The position numbers and the translations under genes were made by a program. DNA of 64,000 bases from Corynebacterium ciconiae DSM 44920 (GTDB lineage Bacteria > Actinomycetota > Actinomycetes > Mycobacteriales > Mycobacteriaceae): NCBI RefSeq assembly GCF_030440575.1, contig NZ_CP047189.1, forward strand, positions 1,922,001-1,986,000, in the 5' to 3' direction. Position 1 is the stretch's first letter, and every line of letters begins with the position of its first letter. The notes beneath the pieces were generated by a model. It saw only the letters and a program-made list of their open reading frames with translations. It had not been told where the DNA came from and did no database searches. Below, one piece after another: positions 7,383 through 28,343 of the stretch.

Positions 7383-7581
7383 GGGCGCCACCCTACCAAG
7401 CAGTGGGGACTATCGCCGCAGCTTCTCCAGCATTTCCGCACCCACTCCAAGGCGAGAGCGTAGACCTAGGGTGCCGGAGACAGCGCTGGCCGCCACCCTC
7501 GCGGTGAGCGCTTCGCACAAGACGCTAATCTCCCCCATCCACTGCGACCATACTGTGAGAGCCAGGCCACTCTTTGCTAGC

Positions 7582-7594
7582 GTTAGGCCCTAAC
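7582..7594. promoter_or_regulatory. Perfect palindrome upstream of the AbgT gene
   Basis: GTTAGGCCCTAAC is a 6-1-6 perfect inverted repeat in the 320-nt gap between two divergent genes. It could be an operator. It is not a DtxR box, because the arms are two bases further apart than in that consensus. Nothing else clear is seen in the gap. Confidence 0.3.
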
Positions 7595-7738
7595 TTAGGC
7601 AGGTCATGCCGTGTGCTCAGGTTTCTCACATGCTGGGCGGGCGGGATGGCGGCCTAGGTGGATAGCCCTTAAGTCCGCTACCCGCAGCGCGCGTCCTCAC
7701 AATCCTTGGAGGGCGGACACTGTATGAAAGGTGCGCCA

Positions 7739-9433
7739 ATGAGCGAGAACCTCGAGAAAAATGAACACACACAGTCGCGGAACCAGGGCGAAAACACGGC
7801 CACGGCCGTGACTTCGAACTCCTCGCGCAGCGAGTCTTCGTCTGCGCCTTCTAGCGACTCCGCCCGCGCTTCCTCCTCCGCGAAAGAATCGACGGGCGTG
7901 TTGGGAGCCATCGAGCGCGTGGGCAATGCGTTGCCGAATCCCTTCTGGCTCTTCGTGATCCTCTCGGGTGTGGTGATCCTGAGTTCGTGGATCGGCTCCC
8001 GTATCGGCATGTCCGCCACTGACCCCGGTTCCGGCGACACCATCAACGTGGTCAACCTGATGACCGCGGAGTACATGCAAAAGATGGTCACCGATGCGGT
8101 GGAGAATTTTGTTACCTTCGCACCCCTAGGCTTGATCTTGGTGTGCATGCTGGGCGTGGCCGTAGCCGAGTATTCGGGATTCATCTCCGCAGCGATTCGA
8201 TCGGCCATCGCCAAGGTCCGCCATCCCGCGATGCTCACCTTCGCCGTCGCCTTGGCCGGCGTGACCGGTTCTATCGCCTCCGACGCCGTGTACGTGATCC
8301 TGATTCCGCTCGGCGCCGCCTCCTTTAACGCGGTGGGCCGTAACCCGATTGTCGGCGCCATGGTGGCCTTCGCGGCTTCTTCGGCAGGCTTTAACTCTTC
8401 ACTCATCCTGAACATCACGGACGTGTTGCTGGCCGGTATCTCTACCCAAGCGGCGGCGTTTGTGGATCCGGACTATGTGGTTTCGCCGCTGGCTAACTAC
8501 TTCTTCTCCATGGCTTCGGCCGTGGTGCTGTCGCTGATCATCACGGCCATCACGGAGCTGTTCATTACCAAGCACGTGCGCAAGACGATCGATGAGAAGC
8601 AGATCAACTACGCCCAAGCCAGCTTCAACACCCCCGATCACCTCGAGGATGAGGGCTCGGACGACGAGTTCGCCGTGCACTCTCGGGAGATGAAGGCCCT
8701 CAAGGCCTCCGGCTTGGCGGCGCTGCTGTTCTTGGCAGCGTGGTTTGCCTTGCTGTTCATCCCCGGATCGCCGATGCGGGGCGAGGGCGACGGCATCTTG
8801 AATTCGCCGCTGCTCACCGACATCGTGGTGTCGATCGCTCTGCTCTTTGCCGTTATCGGCATTGTCTACGGCAAGGTCGTGGGCACGATCACGAGCTCTC
8901 GTGATGTGCCGGACTTTATGGAAAAGGGACTGGACACGCTCACCGCCATGCTGGTGTTGTTCTTTGCCGTTTCCCAGTTCACCGCCTACTTCAAGTGGTC
9001 CAATATCGGCCAGTGGACCGCCATTAAGGGCGCGGAGTTTCTCACCAGCGCCGATCTGCCGCCGGTAGTGCTCTTTGGCGCGCTGGTGCTGATGGTGGCG
9101 CTGCTGAATATCTTCATCACTTCTGGTTCGGCCCAGTGGGCACTCATGGCACCGGTGGTGGTGCCGATGCTGATGTATGTCAATATCTCCCCCGAGGTCG
9201 CGCAGATGCTCTTCCGTGTGGGCGATTCTCCGACCAACATCATCACGCCCATGTCGCCCTACTTCGCTCTGGCGTTGTCCTTCCTGCAGAAGTACTACAA
9301 GCCTGCGGGCGTGGGCACGCTGATGAGCCTGGCTATCCCCTACTCCCTGGCGATGCTCGTGGGCTGGTTCCTCTTCTTCATCCTGTGGTACGCCCTCGGC
9401 ATCCCGCTGGGACCAGGTGTGCCGGTGCGCTAA
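7739..9433 (+). CDS. AbgT-family transporter
   Basis: This membrane protein of about 565 residues has roughly twelve hydrophobic segments and family blocks such as NALPNPFWLF near the start, SGFNSSLILN in the first half and GDSPTNIITPMSPYF in the second half. The AbgT family moves p-aminobenzoyl-glutamate; some members export sulfonamides. The substrate here is not shown by the sequence. The first 60 residues are a Ser-rich cytoplasmic tail unusual for the family. Start: ATG 7739 has AAAGG seven bases upstream; ATG 7724 behind GGAGGG is also possible. Followed by a hairpin terminator, so probably monocistronic. Confidence 0.88.
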   Translation: MSENLEKNEHTQSRNQGENTATAVTSNSSRSESSSAPSSDSARASSSAKESTGVLGAIERVGNALPNPFWLFVILSGVVILSSWIGSRIGMSATDPGSGDTINVVNLMTAEYMQKMVTDAVENFVTFAPLGLILVCMLGVAVAEYSGFISAAIRSAIAKVRHPAMLTFAVALAGVTGSIASDAVYVILIPLGAASFNAVGRNPIVGAMVAFAASSAGFNSSLILNITDVLLAGISTQAAAFVDPDYVVSPLANYFFSMASAVVLSLIITAITELFITKHVRKTIDEKQINYAQASFNTPDHLEDEGSDDEFAVHSREMKALKASGLAALLFLAAWFALLFIPGSPMRGEGDGILNSPLLTDIVVSIALLFAVIGIVYGKVVGTITSSRDVPDFMEKGLDTLTAMLVLFFAVSQFTAYFKWSNIGQWTAIKGAEFLTSADLPPVVLFGALVLMVALLNIFITSGSAQWALMAPVVVPMLMYVNISPEVAQMLFRVGDSPTNIITPMSPYFALALSFLQKYYKPAGVGTLMSLAIPYSLAMLVGWFLFFILWYALGIPLGPGVPVR

Positions 9434-9460
9434 ATAGCCGCGCCGTTCACGCTGAGCGCT

Positions 9461-9498
9461 CAACGCCCCTGTCATCATCGCAATGGCGGGGGCGTTGG
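9461..9498 (+). terminator. Hairpin after the AbgT gene
   Basis: CAACGCCCC pairs with GGGGGCGTTG around a loop of about 18 nt, 28 bases after the stop codon. There is no strong T run after it. Confidence 0.5.
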
Positions 9499-9539
9499 TG
9501 ATAAACCGCACAGACGATGAACAATTGTAAATTGCGCCA

Positions 9540-9569
9540 TTGACTTTTGTTCGTGGCGGGGTTTAGCCT
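9540..9569 (+). promoter_or_regulatory. Candidate deoD promoter
   Basis: TTGACT (9540-9545), 18-nt spacer, TAGCCT (9564-9569), about 75 nt upstream of the deoD start codon. Confidence 0.5.
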
Positions 9570-9649
9570 TGGGTTGTCACTCCGGCGCCGCCGTGTAGGA
9601 AGCAGCAGGTGGGCGTCGATAAGCGTTCTAACTCGAGGGAGTTCTCACC

Positions 9650-10366
9650 ATGGCAGATATTGCTACCCCCCACATCAATCCGAAGGGCGCCCCCATTGCG
9701 GATACCGTGCTCATGCCCGGCGATCCGTTGCGCGCGAAGTTCATCGCCGAGACCTACTTGGAGGACGTGGTCTGCTTCAACGAGGTCCGCAACATGCTGG
9801 GCTTCACCGGCACCTACCAGGGGCACGAAGTGTCTGTGATGGGCTCCGGCATGGGCATTCCCTCCATATCGCTGTACTCCTGGGAGCTGTACAACACCTA
9901 CAACGTAAAGAAGATCATCCGCATCGGCTCCTGCGGTTCGCTGCAAAAGGACCTCGGCCTCTACGAGGTCGTGGTGGCCCAGGGCGCCTGCACGGATTCG
10001 AACTTCATGTACCAGTACAACCTGCCCGGCACCTTTGCGCCGCTGTCCTCCTACCGTCTGCTCGAGGCACTGCAGGCTGAGGCCAAGAAGCAGGGCGTGA
10101 CCACCCACGTGGGCAATGTGCTCTCCTCCGATGTCTTCTACAACGCCGACGAGACCGTGAATGAACGCTGGTCGCGCATGGGTGTGCTCGGCGTGGAAAT
10201 GGAATCCGCCGGGCTCTTTGCGGTGGCCGCAGCCTCCGGCGCCGAGGCCTTGGGCCTGTTCACCGTGTCCGACAACATCGTGACCGGCGAGAAGACCAGC
10301 GCCGAGGAGCGCCAGACCGCCTTCACCACGATGATGGAGCTCGCACTGCCGCTGGCCGCCGTCTAA
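9650..10366 (+). CDS. deoD: Purine-nucleoside phosphorylase, DeoD type
   Basis: This enzyme phosphorolyses purine (deoxy)nucleosides to base and (deoxy)ribose-1-phosphate in nucleoside salvage. The 238-residue length is normal for the hexameric bacterial type. Visible motifs: MPGDPLRAKF (phosphate-binding region) near residue 23, GSGMGIPS near 65, RIGSCGS near 88, and GVEMESAGLF near 180, which contacts the ribose. The catalytic Asp lies in TVSDNIVTGE near residue 205. Start: ATG 9650 behind a GAGGGAG ribosome-binding site. The MFS gene follows 115 nt downstream; co-transcription with a nucleoside or drug transporter is possible. Confidence 0.95.
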   Translation: MADIATPHINPKGAPIADTVLMPGDPLRAKFIAETYLEDVVCFNEVRNMLGFTGTYQGHEVSVMGSGMGIPSISLYSWELYNTYNVKKIIRIGSCGSLQKDLGLYEVVVAQGACTDSNFMYQYNLPGTFAPLSSYRLLEALQAEAKKQGVTTHVGNVLSSDVFYNADETVNERWSRMGVLGVEMESAGLFAVAAASGAEALGLFTVSDNIVTGEKTSAEERQTAFTTMMELALPLAAV

Positions 10367-10480: not shown

Positions 10481-11896
10481 ATGTCATCCTCATCCACGTC
10501 GAGCTCCTCACAGAGCTCCGCCCGCACGGCCCCGGCACTCAACCCCAAAGCAGCCGTGCCGATTCTGCTCATCAGCTTCGTTTTCTGCCTGGTGATCGAT
10601 AACGGCTTTAAGTTCATGACCCTGCCCATCGCGGAGGATCTCGGCATCTCCGTGAACACTGCCTCGCTGCAGGCTAGCTTGGCCGGCATTGTCATCGGCA
10701 TCGGCGCGGTGGTCTACGCGGCCCTCGCAGATGTGATCAGCATTCGCAAATTGATGGTGGTGGGCATTGTGCTCATGGCCGTCGGCTCGCTGATCGGATT
10801 CTTCTTCCAAGGCGTCTGGCCGATGGTGCTCACCGGCCGCATCATCCAGACCTGTGGTTTGGCCGCCGCGGAAACCCTCTACGTCATCTACGTGACCAAG
10901 CACCTCTCGGAAAAGGATCAAAAAACCTATTTGGGCTTTTCCACCTCGGCCTTCCAGCTGGCCATGCTCTTCGGCACACTCACCAGTGGCTTCGTGGCCA
11001 CCTACATTTCGTGGACCGCGATGTTCCTCATCGCGCTCGTCGCCCTGGTGGCCATCCCCGTGATCCTTAAAACCGTGCCCGAGGAAGCTTCCGCGGGCGG
11101 CCACATGGACATCTTCGGCCTGTTCTTGGTGGCCGTGGTGGCCACCGGGGTGATGCTGTACATGCAGGAGTTCCACCTGCGCTGGCTGCTACTCACCGTG
11201 GCGGGTATCGCCCTGTTTGTGTGGCACATCAGCACGCACAGCAACACCGTGGTGCGCCCCGAGTTCTTCCGCAATGGCCGCTACGTGTGGGCACTGGTGA
11301 TCGTGCTCATCCTCTACTCCACCCAGCTGGGTTTGTCGGTCATCGTCATCCCAGGAGCAGTGGAGAACGTCCACGGCGGCGATCTTGCCCAAGCCTCCCT
11401 CGTGTTGGCACCCGGCTATGCCGCCGGCGCCGTAGTGGGTGCGCTGTCCGGCCAGGTGGCGAAGGTGCTTAATTCGCGCCAAGCCATCATTACCGCGATC
11501 AGCATGATCATCGCCTCGCTGGTGTTGACCGCACTGCTCATCAGCTCCAGCATGGTCGTGCTGTCTCTGGCCATGATCCTCTTCAGCGCCGGCTTCGCCG
11601 TGATGTACGCCCCGCTGGTGAACTCTGCCGTGCGCACCATTCCCGCCGCCAAGTCGGGTATCGCCATCGGCTTCTACAACCTCACCATCAACATCGCCAT
11701 CCCTCTGGGCATCGCCTACTCGGCCAAGCTGGTGGAAATGGACGTGCGCTTCTTTGGCGACGGCCCCTCTGCCACCTACTCCTCCGTGCTGTGGCTGCTG
11801 GTACTGCTGTCTGTGGGCGCCCTGGCCATCTACATCCTCAGCGATCGCTCGATGAGCCGCGCCGAAGCACGTCGCAGCGCCTGCGTCGACGCATAA
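10481..11896 (+). CDS. MFS transporter
   Basis: A 471-residue major facilitator of the 14-segment (DHA2-like) appearance: an N-terminal Ser/Thr-rich tail of about 25 residues, then hydrophobic helices from PILLISFVFCLVIDNGFKF to the end. The motif-A-like loop is ADVISIRKLMVVG near residue 85, and TGRIIQTCGLAAAE lies in the position of motif C. Related proteins are drug or metabolite exporters; the substrate is not known. Start: ATG 10481 follows GGTGGAG with good spacing; the longer reading from TTG 10439 has no such site. The position after deoD suggests a possible nucleoside link, but this is only context. Confidence 0.82.
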   Translation: MSSSSTSSSSQSSARTAPALNPKAAVPILLISFVFCLVIDNGFKFMTLPIAEDLGISVNTASLQASLAGIVIGIGAVVYAALADVISIRKLMVVGIVLMAVGSLIGFFFQGVWPMVLTGRIIQTCGLAAAETLYVIYVTKHLSEKDQKTYLGFSTSAFQLAMLFGTLTSGFVATYISWTAMFLIALVALVAIPVILKTVPEEASAGGHMDIFGLFLVAVVATGVMLYMQEFHLRWLLLTVAGIALFVWHISTHSNTVVRPEFFRNGRYVWALVIVLILYSTQLGLSVIVIPGAVENVHGGDLAQASLVLAPGYAAGAVVGALSGQVAKVLNSRQAIITAISMIIASLVLTALLISSSMVVLSLAMILFSAGFAVMYAPLVNSAVRTIPAAKSGIAIGFYNLTINIAIPLGIAYSAKLVEMDVRFFGDGPSATYSSVLWLLVLLSVGALAIYILSDRSMSRAEARRSACVDA

Positions 11897-11938
11897 CCAC
11901 CCCCTCCTGCGCGCCGCCTCGGCCGCAGCGATCACGCA

Positions 11939-11990
11939 CCGCCCCGCCGCGCTGGTGTCCCACCCTAGGGAACTCACTGCGGCGGGGCGG
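11939..11990 (+). terminator. Long GC-rich hairpin after the MFS gene
   Basis: CCGCCCCGCCGC and GCGGCGGGGCGG form a perfect 12-bp stem around a loop of about 28 nt, 43 bases past the stop codon. It lies between convergent genes and could serve both strands. Confidence 0.5.
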
Positions 11991-12091
11991 TCGCGTGCGT
12001 ACTTGCCAGCGGCTGGGCAGCCGATTTGGGCCGGCTGGGCGAGTCTAGATGCCTAGACTTCCGATGTGGGGACGGGGGCTGCTCGCTGCTG

Positions 12092-12751
12092 TTACAAGGT
12101 GTAGATCAGGCCGAGCACCACCAACAGCACAGCAACGATGTAGCTGGCACTTCGCGCGACCTTCTCGGGATGTTCACGGGCATAGATCACCGCCGAGCCG
12201 AGCGTAGAGCGAGGTCTGCTACGCACCAGACCCACAACGATGGCTGACAAGGTCGGCAGGCTCAATGCGACGGAGGCGTAGAGCACCAACCCAAGATAGC
12301 GGTCTACCTCGGTGAGCCCCTCCGCCGAGAGCACTGCCAAGCCACCAAAGAACGGACCCGACGTGGCCGACTGAACCAGGCCAAGAATGAAACCGGTGAG
12401 CATCGTGAGCGGAGAGGGGCTGCGCAGGGGACGCAGGATGCGGTCGATCAGCTGCGAGTTTGAGCCACCGCGCACGGCCATAAGCCCGATCAACAGGCCC
12501 GCGAGAATGAGCAGCGCGCCGAACCAGGGGGAATCCACAAAATGCTTCACGGCATCGCCAATGCCATCAAAGACAAAAAGCGTGACCAGCGCTAAAGAAA
12601 ACACCCCGAGCCAATCGCCAAGGATCAGCAGCGCAGCTACCCGCGGGTAGAGGCGATTGGTGGTGGGCAGGCTCACTCCGATAGCGGCAACCACACCGAT
12701 CAGGAGCACGTTAATCGAATCAACGAAAGCGAAGGTCAAAGCTGAGAGCAC
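12092..12751 (-). CDS. Multi-pass membrane protein, LysE/GAP-like
   Basis: A 219-residue protein with about six hydrophobic segments. It begins with an ALTFAFVDSINVLLIGV helix, the layout of GAP/Sap-type and LysE-superfamily small exporters (compare the ALVDSLSAG start of the protein at 14513). The middle loop PLRSPSPLTMLTGFILGLVQSA also fits that fold. Start: GTG 12751 has GAAGGAG eight bases upstream; longer readings from 12829 or 12883 lack such a site and add non-hydrophobic residues. It is divergent from the SDR gene at 12958. Function and substrate are unknown. Confidence 0.65.
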   Translation of the reverse strand: MLSALTFAFVDSINVLLIGVVAAIGVSLPTTNRLYPRVAALLILGDWLGVFSLALVTLFVFDGIGDAVKHFVDSPWFGALLILAGLLIGLMAVRGGSNSQLIDRILRPLRSPSPLTMLTGFILGLVQSATSGPFFGGLAVLSAEGLTEVDRYLGLVLYASVALSLPTLSAIVVGLVRSRPRSTLGSAVIYAREHPEKVARSASYIVAVLLVVLGLIYTL

Positions 12752-16946: not shown

Positions 16947-18107
16947 GTGTCTGTGACTGATAACCAGCGCCAAGCAGCGCCCCACCAGCCCCAAGCCCAC
17001 TCGGATGAGGTTCCCGAAGGCCCACTTGCGGTCAACGAACCGGTGAGTAACCCGCACCCCTCCACGGTTCCGCCCAGGATGACCGCGCGGGAGTTCACCC
17101 TCAAGGTGCTGAATGGCATCTCTATCGCGGTGGTAGTGGCGCTCGTCCCCCAGGCACTCTTGGGAGCACTACTAAAGGCCTTGCTTCCCGTCTTCCCCCT
17201 CGGCGGGGAGATCATCACCGTCGTGAGTATGGCCACCTCGACTCTGCCGCTGCTTATTGGAGTGCTCGTGGCTATGCAGTTCACACTCACCCCCATCCAA
17301 ACCGCCGCGGTCGGAATTGCCGCCATGTGCGGCTCGGGGGTTGCCACCGTGGACCCTGATGGCGGCTTCCACCTTCAAGGCACGGGATTGGTGATTAACA
17401 CCGGCTTAACCGCAGCTCTAGCGGTCGGCCTGATCTATCTCATCGGTGACCGCCTGAAGAACTACACCATTTTGTTGCTCTCCACCTTGGTGACGGTAAT
17501 CGCAGGCGGTATCGGCTGGATTGTCACCTATCCTCTGGTCAAAGTCTTCACCGAGTGGCTTGGGGGGCTTGTCAACGGAGCAACCGGACTCCAGCCCATC
17601 CTCATGGGCATTGTGCTTGCCATGATCTTCGCCGCGATGATTGTCTCCCCCGTCTCTACTGTGGGTTTGGCCACGGCGATCATGATGGACGGAGTGGCCG
17701 CTGGAACCGCGAACCTCGGTGTTGTTGCCGCCGGCTTTGGCCTCATGATTGCCGGATGGCGTGCCAATGGTGTCAGCACCGCTCTGCTTCACGTCCTCGG
17801 ATCGCCGAAGGTACAGATGGCCAATGCCTTCAAACGCCCCGTGATGATGGTCCCCATCCTTGCCCAGGCCGCGGTGCTGGGGGCTATCGGCGGCGCGATC
17901 GGCATCGCCGGCACCCCTATTTCTGCAGGTTTTGGCATCTCTGGGCTCGTTGGTCCGCTCGCAGCCTACAACACCGGAAGTTCACTGATTACCGTCGTGT
18001 CGATCTTCTTCATCGCCCCAGTAGCCCTCTCGCTGGTGTTCACTGTCGTGTTCCACAAGCTCCTGCCCATCACCTCGGCTGAGGACTACGCGCTCGAGTT
18101 CGATTAA
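16947..18107 (+). CDS. Orphan PTS IIC-like membrane protein (PTS_EIIC_2/PfoR type)
   Basis: After a polar N-terminal tail of 45 residues, the protein is almost wholly hydrophobic, with about ten segments. It starts REFTLKVLNGISIAVVVALVPQALLG and contains GVATVDPDGG and repeated Gly-rich helices as in the PTS_EIIC_2 family. No IIA or IIB partner is nearby, so sugar phosphotransfer cannot be inferred. Some family members are described as regulators of toxin genes (PfoR). Start uncertain: GTG 16947 or GTG 16953 chosen, because the upstream in-frame reading to TTG 16803 is unlike protein. About 386 residues. Confidence 0.7.
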   Translation: MSVTDNQRQAAPHQPQAHSDEVPEGPLAVNEPVSNPHPSTVPPRMTAREFTLKVLNGISIAVVVALVPQALLGALLKALLPVFPLGGEIITVVSMATSTLPLLIGVLVAMQFTLTPIQTAAVGIAAMCGSGVATVDPDGGFHLQGTGLVINTGLTAALAVGLIYLIGDRLKNYTILLLSTLVTVIAGGIGWIVTYPLVKVFTEWLGGLVNGATGLQPILMGIVLAMIFAAMIVSPVSTVGLATAIMMDGVAAGTANLGVVAAGFGLMIAGWRANGVSTALLHVLGSPKVQMANAFKRPVMMVPILAQAAVLGAIGGAIGIAGTPISAGFGISGLVGPLAAYNTGSSLITVVSIFFIAPVALSLVFTVVFHKLLPITSAEDYALEFD

Positions 18108-18173
18108 AACCAATACTCACCCCGAGTTACCCACTGTGCCCCAGTTATTAAGGCCACCGCTACGCCCTAAAAG

Positions 18174-18201
18174 CAGCCCAGCGTGAAAACACACTGGGCA
18201 G
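18174..18201. terminator. Hairpin between convergent genes
   Basis: GCCCAGCGTG pairs with CACACTGGGC (one mismatch) around an AAAA loop, in the gap between the PTS IIC-like gene and the convergent TPR-like gene. Probably serves as a terminator for one or both strands. Confidence 0.5.
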
Positions 18202-18335
18202 CACTCCTTCCTTCAATTCTGAAGGACCTTCTCCACTGTCGAAGGAACATGGCTGTAAGAGCACCACGAGTGGATTCTCGATCAGTGCCGGCTACACCCC
18301 AGCGATTCCTTCTATGCGGTACCTAGCATCGCCGG

Positions 18336-21137
18336 TCAGTACTGCTTGAGATTAGCCACCAGAGAATCAAATTCGTAGCGCAGATCCGTTCCAACATACT
18401 TAGTCGCAGTGACCCGTGGCCTGATCTCTTCCACGAGGGCTCGGGCCTCAGAGATGTCCTCTACCTGCAGGAGCATGGCGGCCTTCGATATCAACGTGAG
18501 CAACTCCATCTGCTCGTCACCCAGCGCGGCGAAGGCTTCTGCCGCCGAGGACGCGTAATCCATACCGGTGCGAATGCTGTGGCAGCTAAACCAAACGTGG
18601 CTGGCCTGCCGCAAGTACATAGCCTCCCGCCACTGGCGAGACCGGCCCCACCGCTCCCCCAACTCGGTGTTCATCACCAGTTCCCTTACCCGGTCAAGGG
18701 TTAGCTCCACCACTGCTCGCTCTTCATCGGAGGCGGGTCCCGGCTGCTTAGCGATGAGGCTCGCCAGGGCCTGCAGATCGTCACTGAGGTTGACCTGCTG
18801 ATCAAAGTAGTCCTGCTCTGCTGCCTCGATAGTCTCGGTTGGCTCCGCGGACTCTTTCACGCTCGCCCACCTCATGTGCGCCTGCTCAAGCCGCGCCTCT
18901 TGGAAGCTCACAGCACGCTGAGCCAAAGCGATGGCCCGGCCATACTGCTGCGCGTTCTCGAAGTGCTGGATGGCAATCGCAGTGAGTTTTCGACGCTGCC
19001 GCGGCTCTTCGACGCTCTCGGCTACCTGCTCAAAGTAGTGGCCAGCATCCCCGCTATGCCCTAGATCCGCCGCAGCCCGAGCCACATCGAAGTTAGCGTT
19101 TAATAACACTTCCGGCAGAGGTTGACCGGTACTGAGCTCATCGAGACAGCCCTGCAACAAATCTGCGGCCTCCGCCGGGCGCTTGAGGTCCAAGAGAACT
19201 TCGGCCAACGAGCCTGCTGCCAACATGCGAAAGTGAGTTATGGCGCACGCCGCGGAAAGGTTCACGCAATCGCGCAACGGGGCGATGGCCTCCTGAAGAT
19301 AGCCGGCTTGTTGAGCAGCACGCCCCATGAGCAGCCACGCACACAGCCGTGCGCCGATAGGCTCAGTCGTCTCCGCGTAGAGAGACTGGTGGCACAGTTG
19401 CGCGCATTCTTGGAATTGCCCCTGGTCCATGTGTTCCTGGGCCGGCTCCAGCAGCGTGTATGCAGGTTCGATGGAGGTGGGCTTGTCGCACCCCATTGCG
19501 GCAAGGCGCACCCGGTGCACCGTCAGCTGTTCCTCTGGGAGGCCGCGCAGCTCGGCTGCCTCGATGGCCAAACGGAGGCGGATGTAGCTCTCCTCTGGGC
19601 TGCCTTGACCGCCAGTTGCGCTGGCTGCCCCATCCTGCTGGTGAAACTCCGGCCACTGATCCGGGGACTCGGAGCGATCCATCATCCGCTGCTTAGCGCT
19701 AAGACCGTAAATAGCGTCCGCGTCCACACCGTAGGTGGCCTCCGCGGCAATCAGTTCATCCACCGAGGCCTCCCGCCACGGCCCGCGCACATCGACCGGC
19801 GTAAGTGGTTCCTCCTCCTGCTGTTCGTCCTGGGCGGCACTTACTCCGCCAATGCCAGTGGTACGGAGCGTGGACGGGCCGGAGGAGCTGTCGACAACCA
19901 GCTGCCCGCTCAAACCCGTGACGTCGGGGATCTCGCTCTCCGGTGAGAGCTGCGGCGGAAGTTCCGGGTTGAGCCACTCCTCCAAGCGGCGCATTTCCAC
20001 CTCCGGGTGCGGGTGACCCGGGCGGGCAGCGAAACTCTGCGCCAAAGAGCGCGCCACATCCTCGCACCAGTGCCGCGCCTGGGAGATGGTGGGGTTATCC
20101 AGCCGAGGCGCATGAGCCCATTCCAGGCTGTCCCCCGGCAAGGTGCCGTGCAGCTGCTCCTGGGCTCGCTCCGGGGGAAGTGCACCCAGCAGGACGGCAC
20201 CCGCGATGGCAAACAGTTGCAGGTCCCTAGGAGTCTCAAACTCGGTGAACCAGGGCAGATGGCGCCGGAAGATTGCCAGTCCCCGCTCCAAGCGGGATGG
20301 CCGCCCTACCTGGCCAGAAAGCGCCAGGTACAGCACTTGCTCCGGAAGGTACTGCGCATCGTACGGCGACTGCTGCCACTTGCGGTAGGTGCGCACGTGC
20401 GCCGCCCACGCCAGATCGTCCTTGCCTGCGTAGAGCCAAGGCACCATGAGCTCGTTGAACAAGGGATCCGCCACAAAGCGGTCCTCGTGCTCCTCGACCA
20501 GTGCAGCCTCGCCCATGTTCGTAGCCGTGGTCCACTGTTGCCGCTCACGGTAATAGGGCAGGAGAGTAATCATCTCCGACGCCAGTGAGGAGCAGAGATC
20601 TCCACGCGGCGTGGTCTCCCACTGCGTCAACGCTGCATCCGCCGCCTCCGCATTGCCCAGCGTCTCGTTGATATCCAGCTCAGCCAAGGAAACGGCGCGC
20701 AGGGTGTCACCAAGCTGCCGGTACAGCTCACGCATACGCTCTAAGAACTGCTCCAGCTGGCTGACCGACACAGTGGGAAGCAGGGTCATGGCAGTGATTG
20801 TGGTCGGGTAGAACTGCGCCCACAGCTGCACCTGCCCATTGGAGAAAGCCTCCGGATGCTCCCGGTAGGTTCTATCCAGCCACGCCACGGGGGCGATTGC
20901 CCGAGTGTAATCGCCGCCGGTTTGATAAGCCAGCGCCAGCGAGAGGTAGCAGTCCACTGCCGTCTGAAGATCCCCTCGTTCCTCCGCCAAGGAGGCAGCT
21001 TGCGCCCAGAGGTTGGACCTCGTTGTACCCCGTGGCGCGCTGCGGGCTCGGTCCATGAGCATCTCTAGGTCATCACGCTGGTCCTCCGGTTCGCGCGATG
21101 CTGCGGAGGCGTTGGGCGGCGGAGGTGTGGTGGACAT
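18336..21137 (-). CDS. Large TPR-like helical-repeat protein of the HSP90-YbjN cluster
   Basis: A 933-residue soluble protein with no signal peptide or membrane segment. Both halves consist of paired amphipathic helices of the TPR kind, for example LAEERGDLQTAVDCYLSLAL near residue 50 and VLLDLKRPAEAADLLQGCLD near 665. A charged, low-complexity linker of about 130 residues (400-530) joins the halves. I see no enzymatic motif. It is the last gene of a four-gene run, 69 nt after the HSP90-like gene; TPR proteins are common HSP90 partners, so a co-chaperone or scaffold role is a reasonable guess. Start: ATG 21137 behind AAGGAGA. Annotated relatives are likely to be listed only as tetratricopeptide proteins. 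Confidence 0.75.
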   Translation of the reverse strand: MSTTPPPPNASAASREPEDQRDDLEMLMDRARSAPRGTTRSNLWAQAASLAEERGDLQTAVDCYLSLALAYQTGGDYTRAIAPVAWLDRTYREHPEAFSNGQVQLWAQFYPTTITAMTLLPTVSVSQLEQFLERMRELYRQLGDTLRAVSLAELDINETLGNAEAADAALTQWETTPRGDLCSSLASEMITLLPYYRERQQWTTATNMGEAALVEEHEDRFVADPLFNELMVPWLYAGKDDLAWAAHVRTYRKWQQSPYDAQYLPEQVLYLALSGQVGRPSRLERGLAIFRRHLPWFTEFETPRDLQLFAIAGAVLLGALPPERAQEQLHGTLPGDSLEWAHAPRLDNPTISQARHWCEDVARSLAQSFAARPGHPHPEVEMRRLEEWLNPELPPQLSPESEIPDVTGLSGQLVVDSSSGPSTLRTTGIGGVSAAQDEQQEEEPLTPVDVRGPWREASVDELIAAEATYGVDADAIYGLSAKQRMMDRSESPDQWPEFHQQDGAASATGGQGSPEESYIRLRLAIEAAELRGLPEEQLTVHRVRLAAMGCDKPTSIEPAYTLLEPAQEHMDQGQFQECAQLCHQSLYAETTEPIGARLCAWLLMGRAAQQAGYLQEAIAPLRDCVNLSAACAITHFRMLAAGSLAEVLLDLKRPAEAADLLQGCLDELSTGQPLPEVLLNANFDVARAAADLGHSGDAGHYFEQVAESVEEPRQRRKLTAIAIQHFENAQQYGRAIALAQRAVSFQEARLEQAHMRWASVKESAEPTETIEAAEQDYFDQQVNLSDDLQALASLIAKQPGPASDEERAVVELTLDRVRELVMNTELGERWGRSRQWREAMYLRQASHVWFSCHSIRTGMDYASSAAEAFAALGDEQMELLTLISKAAMLLQVEDISEARALVEEIRPRVTATKYVGTDLRYEFDSLVANLKQY

Positions 21138-21206
21138 CAGATGGTCTCCTTGATCGGGTAGAAGTAGCGGTCAGGGGCGAGGGGTCTGCTGCGGGATTGG
21201 GGCAAG

Positions 21207-23058
21207 CTACGGTGAAGAGCCGGCCAGGGACAGGGAGATCAAAGTGGTCAGGGCGCTGGAGCTCCAGGACCGGGCCTGGGTAGTCAGCGGGTGGTGCCCC
21301 GCCAGGAGCGCCTGCACATACAAGCCACGGATGGCACTACGGGTGAGCTGATGTCTATCGCTGACACCCGAGAGCTGGTTAATCACTGCGCAATCGGCGT
21401 TAAGCACCAGCTGTGCGCCGGGGCTGTGCGCGGCGCGGATGCGCGCCCGGCCGGCGCTGGCGACGATCTGCCCCATCAGGTCGTTGGCATTGTGCAGGCG
21501 CTCCTCAATCTGCCGACCGGCACCGCCCTCATCCGGCAGATACACCACCGGCACCGAGACCGGATGGAAGCGACGCACGAGCACGCTCACCCGTTGGGAG
21601 GCCAGCGCCTCCTCGGCCGCCGCAATCAGTGGGAGGAACGGGGCCTCCTCAGAGGCCCCTAGCGGGGACATGGCACCAATAATCTCCGCCGCATGAAGGC
21701 GGCGCACCGGAACGTGCGGAGAATCCAGCGCCACCTGTGCCAGCAGCTCCTCGTCAAAGGCGTCCCCTGCGTAGACCACCGTCAGACCATTGCCGCGGAC
21801 GATGGGTAACACCGTGCGGTATTCCGCCTGGGTAGGCACAAAGAGAATCTGCCCGGCGCGATCCATCACCTGCTGAAGAGGCACCATGCCCTGCGAGGTG
21901 GGGAAAGGCACTGCGCGCACGACCATCGCCCGGGTGTGCGTATCCGTGACGGCCAGCGCCTTGAGCCCGTGGATGTGCAGGCTCACAAAATTCTCAAACA
22001 GCTCGGGGTTTTCATTGGCGAGCTTTTGCAGCCAGCTCTGGATCTGCTCCCCTAGTTGGATGCGGGTTGCGTCCAGCAGTTCATCGTCGAAAAGCTGCTC
22101 GCGGGAAGCTGTGGGTTTGAGTATCTCTGTATTGAGTACCACGCGAGCGAAATAGGCCCACTCTGGCAGGATATTCGTAATCCGGTGCCCTACAAGCATG
22201 CGGCGGATGTAGACGTCGTGGTACGTGGCCTGTCCGGGGACGGAACCGGTGCCCATGATGAAGGCCACGCCCTCGGTGCCCATGGCGGGCAGCTTCAGTG
22301 GTAGGCAGGCGAAGGGGGTGAAGCCGAAGTGCTCCGCGCACCACTGCCCCGCCTGGCGCACGGACATCTCCCACGGCGGGGTGGGGTCACTGATCACTTC
22401 GTGCTCCCCGCCGTCCCGCTCGATGGTGATGTGCACGGGCAAGTAGCGGCCATAATCGCGCAAGATAGCGGTGAGGACGGGGACCTCGCAGTATCGCTCC
22501 CCCCGGCCGCGGGTGAAGTATCACCGTGGTCCCCGGACCATGAAGTTCCGGCGGGATCTCTCCGGACGATGCCGTTTCCACGGTCCACGTCCCCCGCGAA
22601 TCGCCCACCCATTTCACCACATCGGCTTCAGGCTCGCGGGCGGAGCGGGAGAACACCGTAATGGTGTCAGAGACCATGAAACAGCTGAGCAGGCCAATAC
22701 CAAACTGCCCCAAGAACTCGCTGCGGTCAAAGCCCAACTCGTCCAGTTTCGAGGAAGCGCCGATGGTGGCCAGCAGCTCGCGAGCTTCCTGCAGCGTGAG
22801 CCCGATCCCCGAGTCGGTGACCCGCAGCCACCCTGGGCCTACGACGCAGCGGATACGCGCCGGGGCATCGGTCTCGATTTCTCTTCGGGCGGTGATCGCA
22901 TCGAGCCCGTTTTGGAGAAGTTCTCGCGCGAAGACCCGCGGACCTGAGTAGAGGTTTCGGGAAAGCAGCTCCACCATGCCGCGCAGATCCACGCGAAAGC
23001 TCTGTTGCGAGCCCTCCCCCGGATTCCGGCGGCCAGGTGGATGGTTGGCGTCACTCAT
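21207..23058 (-). pseudogene. HSP90-family ATPase split by a one-base frameshift
   Basis: Two overlapping frames together give one HSP90-like protein of about 614 residues. Frame one (from ATG 23058) carries the GHKL ATPase: ARELLQNGLDAI (Asn and Asp for ATP/Mg), RVTDSGIGL, FLGQFGIGLLSCFMVSD and GPGTTVIL. Frame two (to 21207) carries the middle domain with TASREQLFDDE, matching the catalytic-Arg loop of HSP90, and a short C-terminal part. The frames meet at a run of six G (plus-strand C at 22499-22504); removing one G restores a continuous protein reading RPGERYCEVP. This could be a real mutation, a sequencing error, or phase variation. If intact it would be a cytosolic chaperone-like ATPase. 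It is shorter and more divergent than HtpG. Confidence 0.8.
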
Positions 23059-23118
23059 TCTCGATGGGCCCCTCCACGCCCTCCTGCTCTTGCCCTGGTG
23101 GTGTGTAACGCAAGCGGC

Positions 23119-23580
23119 TTATTGGGCGGCGTCCTCGATGCCCATGGCCTGCTTGTACTCGTCCAAAGCTTGGACGGAAAGGGTGGAATACGTTGACAGA
23201 AACAGGTCAAGCTGCTCGTCTGAGCAGCCCGCATCCCCCAGCACTAGCGCCGAGCCCATCTCTATCTCTACTCCCTTGTCGGGATTGAGCGTGGGGATGG
23301 CGGTCGGCGCGACGGCCACGCAGTTCCAGTGATTCGACCACGACAGCGCCGCGGCGTAACGCTCCGCCGGCGCCGGCTCCAGCAGCGCCGCTTGGAAGGA
23401 CAACCGCTGATGATCGCAAGAAACCTTGACGAACACCCCGTCGAAACCGGTGATCACAGTCTCCTGCTCCTCGATGAGCTGGTGATCAAGCCCCTTGGAC
23501 TCAAACCACTGGGACACCCTCTGGGCGGTCAACGGGGCGGTCTGAGGGGCAGAGCTTTCATTTTTGTTAAACCATGCCAT
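23119..23580 (-). CDS. YbjN-domain protein
   Basis: A 153-residue soluble protein of the YbjN family, which resembles type III secretion chaperone folds and has no settled enzymatic role. The domain covers residues 20-148, with AERYAAALSWSNHWNCVAVAPTA mid-domain and a C-terminal acidic helix DEQLDLFLSTYSTLSVQALDEY. Start: ATG 23580 behind AGGAGGAG that lies at the end of the preceding gene, so the two YbjN genes are translationally linked (two bases between stop and start). It sits 60 nt upstream of the HSP90-like gene. A truncated relative lies at 47406. Confidence 0.8.
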   Translation of the reverse strand: MAWFNKNESSAPQTAPLTAQRVSQWFESKGLDHQLIEEQETVITGFDGVFVKVSCDHQRLSFQAALLEPAPAERYAAALSWSNHWNCVAVAPTAIPTLNPDKGVEIEMGSALVLGDAGCSDEQLDLFLSTYSTLSVQALDEYKQAMGIEDAAQ

Positions 23581-23582
23581 TG

Positions 23583-24023
23583 TTAGTTCTCCTCCTGTAC
23601 CGACACCACAGATGGCATCTCTTGCGAGAGCGTAGCTAGCGCTTCGCCGTAGGCCTGCATCGTGGAGTCGAAGAAGATCTGCAGCTGTTCATCAGTCATA
23701 CCGGCGCCCAAGGGGAAAGCCGTGTCCATCGTCATCACCCCGGGTGCGTCCTGTGTTCCCACACCGCTCACGCAGACCCTAGGAACGAAGACGTTGCTGG
23801 TGTAGCTGGAGGCAAGCTGAACGGCTTTGGTCATCTGTTCATCGCCGTAAAGCCTCCCGGAGAGGTAGGCCAACAAGGTCAGGTAGTTCTCACTCACCTC
23901 GACGAAGCAGACGAATTCTTCGAAGCCGAAATACGGCTGTCCGCTCTCGGTAACCTCATAGTTTAGGTTGGCGTTCTCTAGGACTTGCTTCATTCTGTCG
24001 TAGGTGACAGGTGGTAAAGACAT
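23583..24023 (-). CDS. YbjN-domain protein, first gene of the cluster
   Basis: A 146-residue second YbjN-type protein: residues 5-30 (VTYDRMKQVLENANLNYEVTE), a central strand region ending SGRLYGDEQMTKAVQLASSYTS, and a C-terminal helix MTDEQLQIFFDSTMQAYGEAL that matches the other copy in layout. The two copies are distant paralogues. Start: ATG 24023 behind GGGAG; an ATG six bases earlier is less well placed. It is the promoter-proximal gene of the four-gene run, and no clear promoter was recognised upstream. Confidence 0.72.
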   Translation of the reverse strand: MSLPPVTYDRMKQVLENANLNYEVTESGQPYFGFEEFVCFVEVSENYLTLLAYLSGRLYGDEQMTKAVQLASSYTSNVFVPRVCVSGVGTQDAPGVMTMDTAFPLGAGMTDEQLQIFFDSTMQAYGEALATLSQEMPSVVSVQEEN

Positions 24024-25120
24024 ACACACTCCCTATGGTTGGTGGCGTAGAACACACACCCTACATGACAACGTCGACACTCTGCGTTGACGGCTATTCC
24101 ACTCGAGAGACTTGCAGTCATGGTCTTTGAGAAATTCCCAAGCATGGAAGCTAGGAGCGAGATCAGGAGATGAACCAGATACACCGCCTTATCAAACGGT
24201 AGCTGCCATCGCGTTCGACATTTTCCTTTTGGAAATGACACAAACGAAATCGGCGACACTCTCGTTGCGCCATGAGCAACGACTCTGCAACTCCCCGCCG
24301 TCTCGAGGATGTGCCATTAATCGCGTATGCAGCGTATCCCTTGAAAGGCCCTGTGAGCAGCCGGCTTGACCAAGAAGCGCAACACGATAGTTTTAACGCC
24401 CCCCGAAGCGACAACCGCCAAAGCACCGGTTAGCGCGACAATAACAAAAGAATTCCTCTACGGGGCGCCAAACTAAGGACCACAAACATTATTCCAAAAC
24501 AGACAGCATGAGCTTCTGCTACATTTGTGGACTTCGAGCGATGAAGCGGCATAAAACCAAAGAGCACGTCGGGCGCGATGAGCACAATGGATACCGCGAA
24601 GGCATGAGAGTGGGACTCGTGCCCACTAGAAGCAGCATCCGGCCCCTGCGCCGCGGTGGCAGGGCCCGAGAATTCTGGTTATGCGAGCACCAGACCATCG
24701 GCCTGTGCCACAGACGAACCGAGCACTGCACCCTTACTCACCGGCTCGACTATTCGACTGGCGGCCCAATGCGAAGACACCCTCGGCAGAACACAGGCTG
24801 AGCGGAACGCTGCCGACCTTCCCATCCCCACCGCTGCAACGCCCACTGGGCACATCCGACCACTATCCCCCACGAGTTTGGGACCACAATGCGCCTAGTT
24901 AGAGCGCGGCGGGCGATAAGCCTATCGAAGGTTGTAGTGGGATGAGAGTAGGTGCGGTTAGCTGTTGGATCGCGTCACTGGGGTTATTTTCTGTTTTTAT
25001 TGCTACCCCCGAGGTGTGCGCGCCTGTGGGTGATGTGGTTATCTAATGCCGCGCGTTGCTGATGGTTTTGTTTTCCATCAACTAAACGCTGTTATGTCAC
25101 AGTCTTCTCTGGAAAGGACG
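24024..25120. other. Gene-poor interval
   Basis: About 1.1 kb without a convincing gene. Several short frames (for example 24163-24426 minus, 24508-24801 plus) have unusual composition and no ribosome-binding site. I see no tRNA, terminator or repeat that can be supported. It could be remnant DNA. Confidence 0.5.
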
Positions 25121-25126
25121 ATGCTG

Positions 25127-25366
25127 ATGAATACCTTCATCACCGCTGTTACTGCTATTGCAACGCTTGTAGGTGTGATTGTTCCTCTTGCTCAAAGCAG
25201 CGCGGAGAACAACGAGAACCCGGCTGTCGTTGAGCAGCAGCCTGCGGACAATGGTTCGAGCAGTTCTTCTTCTGCAGAAGACACCGCTGGCGCCGAGGAC
25301 GCTGCCGCTTCTGAGGATGCGGATGCTGCTGCAACCGTTGATGAGGATGCTGCTGAAACCGAGTAG
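25127..25366 (+). CDS. Small protein with N-terminal hydrophobic helix and acidic tail
   Basis: A 79-residue protein. Residues 2-24 (NTFITAVTAIATLVGVIVPLA) are one hydrophobic helix, either a membrane anchor or an uncleaved or cleaved signal. The rest is disordered, with a Ser run and then repeated Glu, Asp and Ala. GGAAAGG lies just upstream; ATG 25121 gives two more residues. A clear terminator follows, so this is likely a real single-gene unit. Function unknown. The composition would fit a cell-envelope peptide, but nothing in the sequence proves it. Confidence 0.6.
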   Translation: MNTFITAVTAIATLVGVIVPLAQSSAENNENPAVVEQQPADNGSSSSSSAEDTAGAEDAAASEDADAAATVDEDAAETE

Positions 25367-25398
25367 CTATAGCCTCTCAGAGAGCTAACTACACCGAG

Positions 25399-25440
25399 GC
25401 CCGGATAGTGCTGTACTTAGTCACTTTCCGGGCTTTCTTA
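25399..25440 (+). terminator. Rho-independent terminator
   Basis: GCCCGGATAGT pairs with ACTTTCCGGGC (small mismatch) around a loop of about 13 nt, followed by TTTCTTA. Confidence 0.75.
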
Positions 25441-25800
25441 TGACCATTCTCGTGGGCACAGGCTGGTGAACCCCAGAAAATAGGTGGGAGCACATGCCCA
25501 TGACCACCCCGCGTACGAGGCGGCTCGTTTTTCTTCCGTCTATGCTTCAATCAACCTCTGCACTAGGAGGCCTCAGCAGAATCATCGGGCGCCCCTCTCC
25601 GCCTGCTTAAGACGATCTCCAACCATCATTAACACCTTGTCAAATTTCCAGTCCATGCTCTTTCGATTGCGTACCGGAAGCGATGGAAGAAAAAAGGACA
25701 AGTTCGGGCGTAGACCTCGGAGAAACCCACTAGGCTCCGGCGACACAATAGCTGGGCCAGCACTGCGCCGGCATCCCAGTAGAAAAGCTCCACTACACCC

Positions 25801-25947
25801 TCACTCATCCGAGCACTCCACCGGCACCTTGGACCCAGAATCACGTGCCGTACTGTTCTCGGATACCTGATCCGAGCTGGAGTAATCAGCGGCAGAGGCC
25901 GCTTCCTCGGTGTTCTCTGGGGTGTGATCAACAGAATCGTTATCCAT
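25801..25947 (-). CDS. Small acidic protein
   Basis: A 48-residue, Ser/Asp/Glu-rich protein (MDNDSVDHTPENTEEAASAA...) with no hydrophobic segment. Support comes mainly from the ribosome-binding site AGGAGGAGTC directly before ATG 25947. A terminator hairpin with T run lies just upstream at 25981-26025, so it starts a new transcript. Function unknown; a tail resembling the acidic part of the 25127 protein is composition only. Confidence 0.45.
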   Translation of the reverse strand: MDNDSVDHTPENTEEAASAADYSSSDQVSENSTARDSGSKVPVECSDE

Positions 25948-25980
25948 GACTCCTCCTGGGAGTAGAAAAATGGGCATAAT

Positions 25981-26025
25981 AAAACCCCACACCAGCAGTT
26001 CCTTCAAGGACCGCCCAATGTGGGG
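25981..26025 (-). terminator. Rho-independent terminator with T run
   Basis: On the minus strand CCCCACA pairs with TGTGGGG, followed by TTTTATTAT. It lies directly after the tRNA-like T-arm, as expected for the end of a small RNA or tRNA transcript. Confidence 0.65.
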
Positions 26026-26123: not shown

Positions 26124-26474
26124 CTACGTCACTTTCAGTGGATCGACAGACAGCGACTGAGCCAGAGTGGGAAAATCGTAGTCTCCTTTGAAAAGCCGCA
26201 GGTTTTCCCGCACGGTGTAAGGGATGTAGTCGTCCATGCCGTAGTCCCTAGCGATTTGCATATAAACCTTCACGGCGAAGGTGTAGTCACCGTCATCTGC
26301 TTCCTCTTGAACCCAAGCCATTTTCTCTGGAGGAAGCTGAGGTCCCGTCGAAGTGATGTACTCGTACACACTCTTTTGATCGTCAAACTTGGGGTACTCC
26401 ACGCTGGGCTCCTCTTCTGTCTCTTGATCTCGACCGGATAGGCGTAGTTGGCGACGGTAACGCTTGTCTACCAC
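26124..26474 (-). CDS. Hypothetical protein, possible immunity partner of the upstream toxin-like gene
   Basis: A 116-residue acidic soluble protein (RLSGRDQETEEEPSVEYPKF, then a helical region DGDYTFAVKVYMQIARDYG). I do not recognise the family. It starts with GTG directly after the TGA of the preceding frame (TGAGTG), so translation is coupled. Polymorphic toxins are usually followed by such a small acidic immunity gene, and the preceding frame has an EndoU-like motif. That is the only basis for the proposal. Confidence 0.5.
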   Translation of the reverse strand: MVDKRYRRQLRLSGRDQETEEEPSVEYPKFDDQKSVYEYITSTGPQLPPEKMAWVQEEADDGDYTFAVKVYMQIARDYGMDDYIPYTVRENLRLFKGDYDFPTLAQSLSVDPLKVT

Positions 26475-26726
26475 TCAAGACGTTGTTGTGTCTGTTGCTC
26501 CATTAATTCGCTTCTTGACCTCCGTGCAATCCCTCTTTGGTGATTCTAGCTTCCACCTCTTCTCTGGAACTTGATTCACCTTCCACTGGACAACACTGGC
26601 TTCCGCTTGGGTTTCGAGCACATCACGGACCGCGTCCACGATCTTCTGGTTCGACCACGAATCGGGATACCCGGGCCTAGCGACCTTCGATACGGCTTGT
26701 TTTCTTGGGTGCGTCGTCGAGTTCAT
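26475..26726 (-). pseudogene. EndoU-like toxin C-terminal fragment
   Basis: An 83-residue frame containing GYPDSWSNQKIVDAVRDVL near residue 20. This resembles the FP..W...K..D.I segment near the end of bacterial EndoU-type nuclease domains used by polymorphic toxins. The rest of the domain, including catalytic His residues, is missing, and after residue 45 the reading looks unlike the family; an overlapping frame (26500-26560) gives REEVEARITKEG, which may mark a frameshift. Probably a decayed toxin tip kept with its immunity gene. Start (ATG 26726) is uncertain. Confidence 0.4.
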
Positions 26727-27339
26727 GGACACCAAGAGCAAAATACTGTTCCACCACCTGCTCGCGTCTTTTCCCAAGGGGCTCATCGGCGTTCCACCCC
26801 CAGAGCACATACCCAGGCTTGTGATGAAGAGTCGGCAGCGGAAGCTTTCACTACCGCGTCCAGCCCCTGAGCACTGCGGTGCAGCCCCGTGATCTCGCCC
26901 TCTCCGAAAATCTTAGGTTTTCACCCTCGGACTCGGAGTGAACTGCAGGTGACATGCTGAAACACCATGTTCGACAATCAAGTTAGTTTTCCACTGTGTC
27001 TGACGTTCTTGATTTGAGCGAGGCATCGACGCAAGCGCCCTAACCTCCATGGCCACATACCGGCGATGGTCGTGAGACCTCAAAGCCTTAGTCACACCAG
27101 CCGTATCCGCGCTGTAGACCGCAGGCCGCGGAGCTGCCACGAAGCAAAAAACCGTGTGGTGCTAGCTTCCTCCCCCAGCAAACTTCATCTCAACAGCAAT
27201 GCTGCTTTGAGTCCTCTCTCGATCCGGATGCTTCAACACTGCCGCTGACGACGGATGGGTATGTGAACATCTGCCGCAGTGGATCTTAACCTCGTGGCAG
27301 ATTCCAGCCCAGAAGAACCAATGGAAGGCTGCGACGACT
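26727..27339. other. Interval without a convincing gene
   Basis: About 610 nt between the toxin-like fragment and the ImmA-like fragment. Short frames on both strands have no ribosome-binding site and no recognisable domain. Consistent with decayed island DNA. Confidence 0.45.
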
Positions 27340-27951: not shown

Positions 27952-27960
27952 ATTAATCCG

Positions 27961-28343
27961 TGGAGCTGCCGGGAATCGAACCCGGGTCCTTCGTCATTTC
28001 ACCAGGGCTTCTCCGTGCGCAGTTCGTGCGCTGATCTCTACTCGGCTCTCCGGCTTGGACGAACACATCCGGACGATGAGCCCAGTTGGCGGTAAGTGTC
28101 CCCTCTGGCCCCGTCAACGCAGCCAGTGGGCAAGTTCCCTTGAGTCGATGCCGGGAACTAGGGCGGGAACTACCCTAGGCCGACAGACACGCGTCGCTGA
28201 TTAGGCAGCGAGGGCGTAGTCACGCTGAGAGGTCTTCTCTGCGTTTATTTTAGGTACTACGACGCTTAAATCGGTGGTCGATAGCCTGCACCGGCACGCT
28301 TCCCCTGGATCAGGGTACGAAGTCGAAACCAAAAATCAGCCCC
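27961..28343 (-). ncRNA. ssrA: Transfer-messenger RNA
   Basis: The minus strand begins GGGGCTGATTTTTGGTTTCGAC and ends GGACCCGGGTTCGATTCCCGGCAGCTCCA, the paired tRNA-like ends of a one-piece tmRNA of 383 nt. CCA is not encoded. The tag frame (28202-28241) reads AEKTSQRDYALAA after the resume alanine. It rescues stalled ribosomes and marks the unfinished protein for proteolysis. It works with smpB, 112 nt upstream. The promoter is at 28399-28427, so a leader of about 50 nt must be removed, as expected for RNase P. Confidence 0.97.

Follow-up and report, generated by a model that had tools for sequence, protein, structure and literature searches.

An HSP90 branch encoded beside a TPR-family protein

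We describe a group of actinobacterial loci in which a divergent HSP90 is encoded together with a long protein of the tetratricopeptide repeat (TPR) family, exemplified by a four-gene cluster of Corynebacterium ciconiae DSM 44920. The cluster lies in a 64-kb window (the whole stretch of DNA that was analyzed, positions 1922001-1986000 of the 2.58-Mb genome). Its four coding units, YbjN-A, YbjN-B, HSP90, and TPR in this order, are all read from the minus strand. The intergenic gaps measure 2, 60, and 69 nt, in agreement with a preliminary description of the sequence, which had reported one direction and gaps of 2 to 70 nt. Gene order and strand are the same in another Corynebacterium genome, with identities of 25-61%, and in that single within-genus comparison the TPR and YbjN proteins are less conserved than HSP90.

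HSP90 and TPR form the core of these loci. We examined two sets of loci of the HSP90 branch (family PRK14083, see below). HSP90 is followed by a co-directional TPR-family gene in 34 of the 37 loci of the first set and in 78 of the 79 loci of the second. After removal of six genomes shared by both sets, this amounts to 106 of 110 distinct loci. The TPR profile was built from the 37-locus set, which leaves out L096-L098, retrieved as TPR-only loci; the independent test is the 79-locus set, the six shared genomes aside. None of 20 loci encoding canonical HtpG, hand-picked as controls from the below-cut-off rows of the class sample, has a TPR neighbor. The preliminary description had considered that the genes might be found together in this strain only, and its idea of a system survives this comparison. 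The two genes are also close: a possible TPR start lies between -20 and +60 nt from the HSP90 stop in 98 of 112 pairs, and a 4-nt overlap is possible in 49. The adjacency spans several actinobacterial families, the hosts of the 79-locus set including Corynebacterium, Schaalia, Actinobaculum, Gleimia, Lentzea, Saccharothrix, Actinokineospora, Gordonia, and Saccharopolyspora.

Three of the four exceptions concern a contig end (L082), another ORF (open reading frame) placed before the TPR gene (L084), and an HSP90 of borderline score (L118, 454 bits). The last, L134, is an HSP90 alone (7986-9773), flanked by an lpd-like gene and a small conserved gene starting with MDV[IM]ELNGGRFYLRP. The same chromosomal position in L096 (7592-8764), from a genome that is 53% complete, holds the N-terminal half of a TPR gene alone. 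L134 and L096 are possibly reciprocal remnants of the module. In the loci of two related corynebacteria (L093/L133 and L094), TPR genes flank HSP90 on both sides.

Both HSP90 pieces match the PRK14083 family best

The HSP90 region of the window (21207..23058, minus strand) consists of two ORFs, described below, and both match PRK14083/NF010683 ("HSP90 family protein") better than HtpG. The pieces score 328 and 226 bits against NF010683, separately because the frame is broken, for a curated cut-off of 455. Against canonical HtpG (NF003555) they score 53.1 and 89.7 bits, which even when summed is far under the cut-off of 371. The protein had been described as shorter and more divergent than HtpG. 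The divergence is clear, but the difference in length is marginal (604 model positions for PRK14083 against 614 for HtpG), and 69 of the 79 relatives in the second locus set have 577-645 aa when starts are called mechanically. The window pieces share the ATPase and the HSP90 architecture with canonical HtpG. They retain the motifs ELLQN, DxGxGL, and GQFGIGLL and the PTASRE loop, which we take to be the GHKL ATPase residues and the arginine loop of the middle domain.

This branch is patchy in the genus, where 17 of the 151 genomes sampled match the PRK14083 profile, 16 of them above the cut-off; above-cut-off matches were obtained in 35 of 296 genomes of the class sample and in 3 of 149 of the phylum sample. 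A search of the C. ciconiae genome with the PRK14083 profile (E 0.001) revealed no further HSP90. Bacterial HTPG proteins were sorted in 2006 into three groups; Actinobacteria fall in A and C, S. coelicolor has two copies from different groups, and presence in Corynebacterium is patchy (PMC1525184). The PRK14083 branch is possibly group C of that work, a tie that we infer; the available passages describe no TPR or YbjN neighbor.

The HSP90 gene of C. ciconiae reads as broken

The preliminary description counted a single HSP90-like gene, and this was not borne out. The region is not one open frame but two mutually out-of-register ORFs, 23058..22387 and 22463..21207. The first piece (22387..23058) carries the ATPase domain, with ELLQN, DSGIGL, and GQFGIGLL kept, and is homologous to PRK14083 down to ~22508, after which it is off-register. 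The second (21207..22463) carries the middle and C-terminal parts, with PTASRE kept, and its homologous frame starts at ~22500, upstream of the mechanical TTG start. As ORFs, the pieces cover positions 4-174 and 185-597 of NF010683. A search with whole frames gave 4-173 and 170-597, so that only the frame is lost and no sequence is missing. The switch of register maps to a G run at ~22,500 (22495..22510, minus strand). Programmed -1 frameshifting over this run was rejected, since the ORF coordinates give registers that do not fit a -1 shift. This copy of HSP90 is decaying, phase-off, or mis-sequenced. In L091 (~11782-12236, genome G150), the first YbjN gene of the pair is likewise split in two ORFs in different frames; hence, the HSP90 of the window is not the sole gene with a broken reading among such modules.

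A break of this kind raises the question of whether the cluster in C. ciconiae is a dead remnant, a reading that would also account for the loss of the TPR cysteines (see below) and for the gene-poor kilobase upstream, and that finds an echo in the reduced loci elsewhere, L134 with HSP90 alone and L096 with the N-terminal half of TPR alone. We find it quite improbable. The other three ORFs are intact, third-position GC is high in all coding pieces of the cluster, both HSP90 pieces included, and the register change at the G run may also stem from a sequencing error or reflect a switchable state.

The TPR partner is a long helical-repeat protein

The 933-residue helical-repeat protein of the preliminary description is present as announced (18336..21137, minus strand). 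Taken alone, it falls under every TPR cut-off; its relatives and an AlphaFold2 model place it in the TPR family. The protein contains tandem helix-turn-helix repeats of the TPR type, and the model shows two helical solenoids (~16-389 and 514-932) with a poorly predicted linker between them. Among the structure matches listed, few of the alignments reach residues before ~550. In 32 aligned TPR rows, a CxxC motif is kept in 29, a third cysteine in 30, a histidine in 29, and all four elements in 27. A search of the genome contigs with the 933-aa protein confirmed no relative. A terminator-like hairpin with a T-rich tail lies 3' of the gene (18176..18199, minus strand), identified by pattern match alone, with 5 such sites for 4.9 expected by chance.

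Pairs of unlike YbjN proteins accompany one clade

The two remaining genes encode YbjN proteins. YbjN-A (23583..24023, minus strand) begins with an ATG at 24023, has an alternative GTG start 6 nt upstream at 24029 (the mechanical start, ORF 24029..23583), and ends with MPSVVSVQEEN. YbjN-B (23119..23580, minus strand) begins with MAWF. The assignment of both to YbjN in the preliminary description is upheld at the Pfam cut-off (PF10722, 22 bits) for YbjN-B, with 28.8 bits, but not for YbjN-A, with 19.6. At E 0.01, PF10722 matches 33 of 37 aligned YbjN rows, and PF22551 (TY-Chap1) matches three.

We built a tree of 51 HSP90 rows, in which a clade of 24 rows, the window included, has 100/100 support (see below). 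YbjN genes lie within 7 kb of the HSP90-TPR core in 20 of these 24 rows. Outside the clade, a single YbjN was found in 2 of 27 rows (L083 and L220), that of L083 having been missed by the domain cut of the adjacency scan and seen by other searches. The idea of a four-gene system thus holds for the HSP90 and TPR core, but the genes are not four equal parts, YbjN being an add-on of one clade.

In most cases the YbjN genes of the clade stand in tandem pairs, only a few nucleotides apart and placed either before or after the core, and the two members differ. First members often begin with MxLPxVT, and second members with MAWF or similar. The C-terminal pattern [FLMA]P[HDEGQSA][LVIA] is present in 24 of 30 first members and in 2 of 30 second members, counts in which the L091 "pair" consists of two fragments of one broken YbjN-A, one of them being one of the two pattern-bearing second members. 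At least three acidic residues among the last eight were found in 17 first and 5 second members (30 each), and a tryptophan-acidic-like tail in 12 of 29 first and none of 29 second members once the L091 pair was removed. The tail patterns were chosen after viewing the tails and the rows are related, so that these numbers are descriptions and not p-values. The tandem unlike pairs hint at a dimer of the type III secretion chaperone kind, which as a homo- or heterodimer would bind peptide segments.

Further YbjN genes were observed around and away from the module. In L093/L133 and L094, three YbjN pairs and a longer YbjN (418-420 aa) stand in a row beside it. Some Corynebacterium genomes have other pairs, and single open frames with two YbjN matches, away from it (e.g., G090:C1:1844435-1845287 and 2359421-2360461), a hint that these YbjN proteins may pair in general. 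In Actinobaculum (L125), an apparent fusion of two YbjN domains (358 aa) was discarded, since its N-terminal part is an out-of-frame reading and one domain matches.

HSP90 and TPR are inherited together

The 24-row HSP90 clade comprises Corynebacteriaceae, Actinomycetaceae, and one Propionibacteriaceae bin, while the remaining Corynebacterium HSP90s (four rows) sit in two other clades. A tree of 44 TPR rows, made with a quick method, gives the same split (26 versus 18, support 100). The matching splits show joint inheritance of the two genes and are consistent with their having been transferred together. Since the YbjN-bearing clade mixes three families, it has moved horizontally. Its occurrence in both corynebacteria and Actinomycetaceae suggests that a chaperone machine travels in one piece.

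Different lineages carry the module in different surroundings, near ispG-like, groEL-like, pyruvate carboxylase-like, or lpd-like genes (named by eye). In all four loci of one group (L119-L122, ~6230-7850; C. meridianum, Corynebacterium sp. TAE3-ERU16, C. pygosceleis, and C. marambiense), HSP90 is preceded on its own strand by a gene that looks GroEL-like by eye, at a distance of 65 nt in L120. This linkage may put the module under heat-shock control in that group. Further conserved neighbors in Pseudonocardiaceae-like loci were set aside, as they look like a fixed chromosomal setting with many spurious overlapping ORFs.

A putative chaperone module and its alternatives

Our preferred reading, which we consider somewhat probable, is that of a horizontally mobile actinobacterial chaperone module made of an HSP90 machine, a dedicated TPR partner, and a clade-specific YbjN add-on. 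The core would be a divergent HSP90 of the PRK14083 branch made together with the long two-solenoid TPR protein, probably from one transcript, the latter contacting HSP90 and acting as its dedicated co-chaperone or scaffold. In the YbjN-bearing clade, YbjN-A and YbjN-B might form a dimer that holds clients and is anchored to the TPR groove through the tail of YbjN-A, and the whole would handle clients. The preliminary proposal of a dedicated chaperone machine is partly supported: the HSP90-TPR linkage is conserved, but the YbjN pairs are an add-on of one clade and the HSP90 frame is broken in this genome.

In eukaryotes, TPR co-chaperones such as Hop/Sti1 and Cpr6 accompany HSP90, as TPR would here, and docking relies on the MEEVD tail of HSP90 (PMC4428384). 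The preliminary description had drawn on this partnership, but docking of an HSP90 tail into the TPR protein is not supported: the C-terminal ends of HSP90 vary, and inspection by eye of 17 intact rows and the window piece revealed no conserved acidic or MEEVD-like C-terminal motif. The acidic tail is instead on YbjN-A. A tentative and rather doubtful proposal is that a YbjN heterodimer docks into the TPR groove by its acidic, often tryptophan-acidic tail, so that the eukaryotic mode of docking would have been re-invented on another subunit. The TPRs of kinesin light chain bind short acidic motifs, the W-acidic and Y-acidic peptides (PMC6214655). Kinesin light chain (6f9i) is among our structure matches and likewise combines a TPR groove with a short acidic aromatic motif, but the similarity is that of TPRs in general, and the comparison may serve as an analogy only. 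The YbjN family (AmyR, DR1245) and the TY-chaperones share PF10722 with our proteins, and DR1245 partners DdrB (PMC3575483); here, in difference, two unlike YbjN genes stand in tandem beside HSP90 and TPR.

Several observations besides the missing HSP90 tail motif and the broken HSP90 frame speak against a dedicated module. L134 has neither TPR nor YbjN near its HSP90, and 4 of the 24 clade rows have no YbjN within 7 kb. The TPR protein of the window has none of the three aligned cysteines kept in 29-30 of 32 rows, and long TPR solenoids resemble many unrelated structures. No HSP90-TPR fusion occurs among the loci searched, a 1637-aa frame in G366 being HSP90 only. The tail of YbjN-A in the window has no tryptophan, and the tail pattern is lacking in 6 of the 30 first members, one of which is a fragment of a broken gene. 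YbjN is widespread without HSP90, with PF10722 in 143 of 151 genomes of the genus against 17 of 151 for HSP90, the C. ciconiae genome itself being under the threshold of that PF10722 search. As for regulation, HrcA acts at CIRCE operators and HspR at HAIR operators. CIRCE matches are absent from the window, and its single HAIR-like match (13726, 3 mismatches) compares with 2.0 expected by chance; a heat-shock operator in the window was rejected. There is no sigma-70-like promoter match in 17900-25200.

The wide occurrence of YbjN in the genus without HSP90 lends itself to another account: an inherited HSP90-TPR operon for general stress protection, with TPR as a loose scaffold and YbjN as unrelated passengers of one clade. 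The GroEL-like gene before HSP90 in the C. pygosceleis group fits this account, as does the setting often shared by Pseudonocardiaceae-like loci, where one cluster of neighbors, seen in 39 loci, looks by eye like ribosomal protein L20. Yet YbjN accompanies the module in most rows of the clade, on one side of it or the other and in varied settings, there are systematic differences between first and second members, and heat-shock operators do not exceed chance in the window. We regard this account as possible but rather unlikely. A role in anti-phage conflict, with an HSP90-like ATPase, a TPR sensor, and peptide-binding chaperones of the YbjN/TY type, seems to us less likely still. The patchy, horizontally moved presence in the genus and the lower conservation of TPR and YbjN are what such a system might show, and YbjN-related TY-chaperones occur in predicted conflict systems (PMC9503650), TY-Chap1 being matched by the three YbjN rows mentioned above. 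However, no effector domain was found in the four genes, and the genes around 16 related loci have, by eye, a housekeeping appearance. The best PADLOC match of the cluster is TmtA, in the ATPase domain only (~105 of 1302 positions), and none of 10 neighbors in the window matches a PADLOC model at E 0.01, so that a defense island was rejected.

The HSP90 branch was already known, and its set of partners appears undescribed: judging by titles and abstract openings, we found no description of an HSP90-TPR-YbjN neighborhood in the open-access literature searched (bioRxiv being outside its scope). In the passages available, E. coli HtpG had no cochaperone identified by 2014 (PMC4428384), and bacterial Hsp90 had, as of 2021, no identified cochaperones that take part in remodeling (PMC7926864). 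The constancy of the TPR gene beside this one branch of HSP90 makes it a concrete candidate for a bacterial Hsp90 cochaperone, testable with two proteins, and suggests dedicated helpers for some bacterial HSP90s. In the clade with YbjN pairs, a second interface becomes testable.

Upstream region of the cluster

About 1 kb upstream of the module (24040-25046) is without a clear gene in the ORF scan, inspected by eye. It overlaps a stretch of lower GC (0.544 over 24001-26000) and lies less than 4 kb from the transfer-messenger RNA (tmRNA) gene at 27960-28343. Two small minus-strand ORFs, 26475-26810 and 26124-26474, are found near the tmRNA gene. The first scores 16.7 bits against an EndoU nuclease domain, for a cut-off of 25.3, and the two are possibly the end of a toxin gene and a small partner gene.

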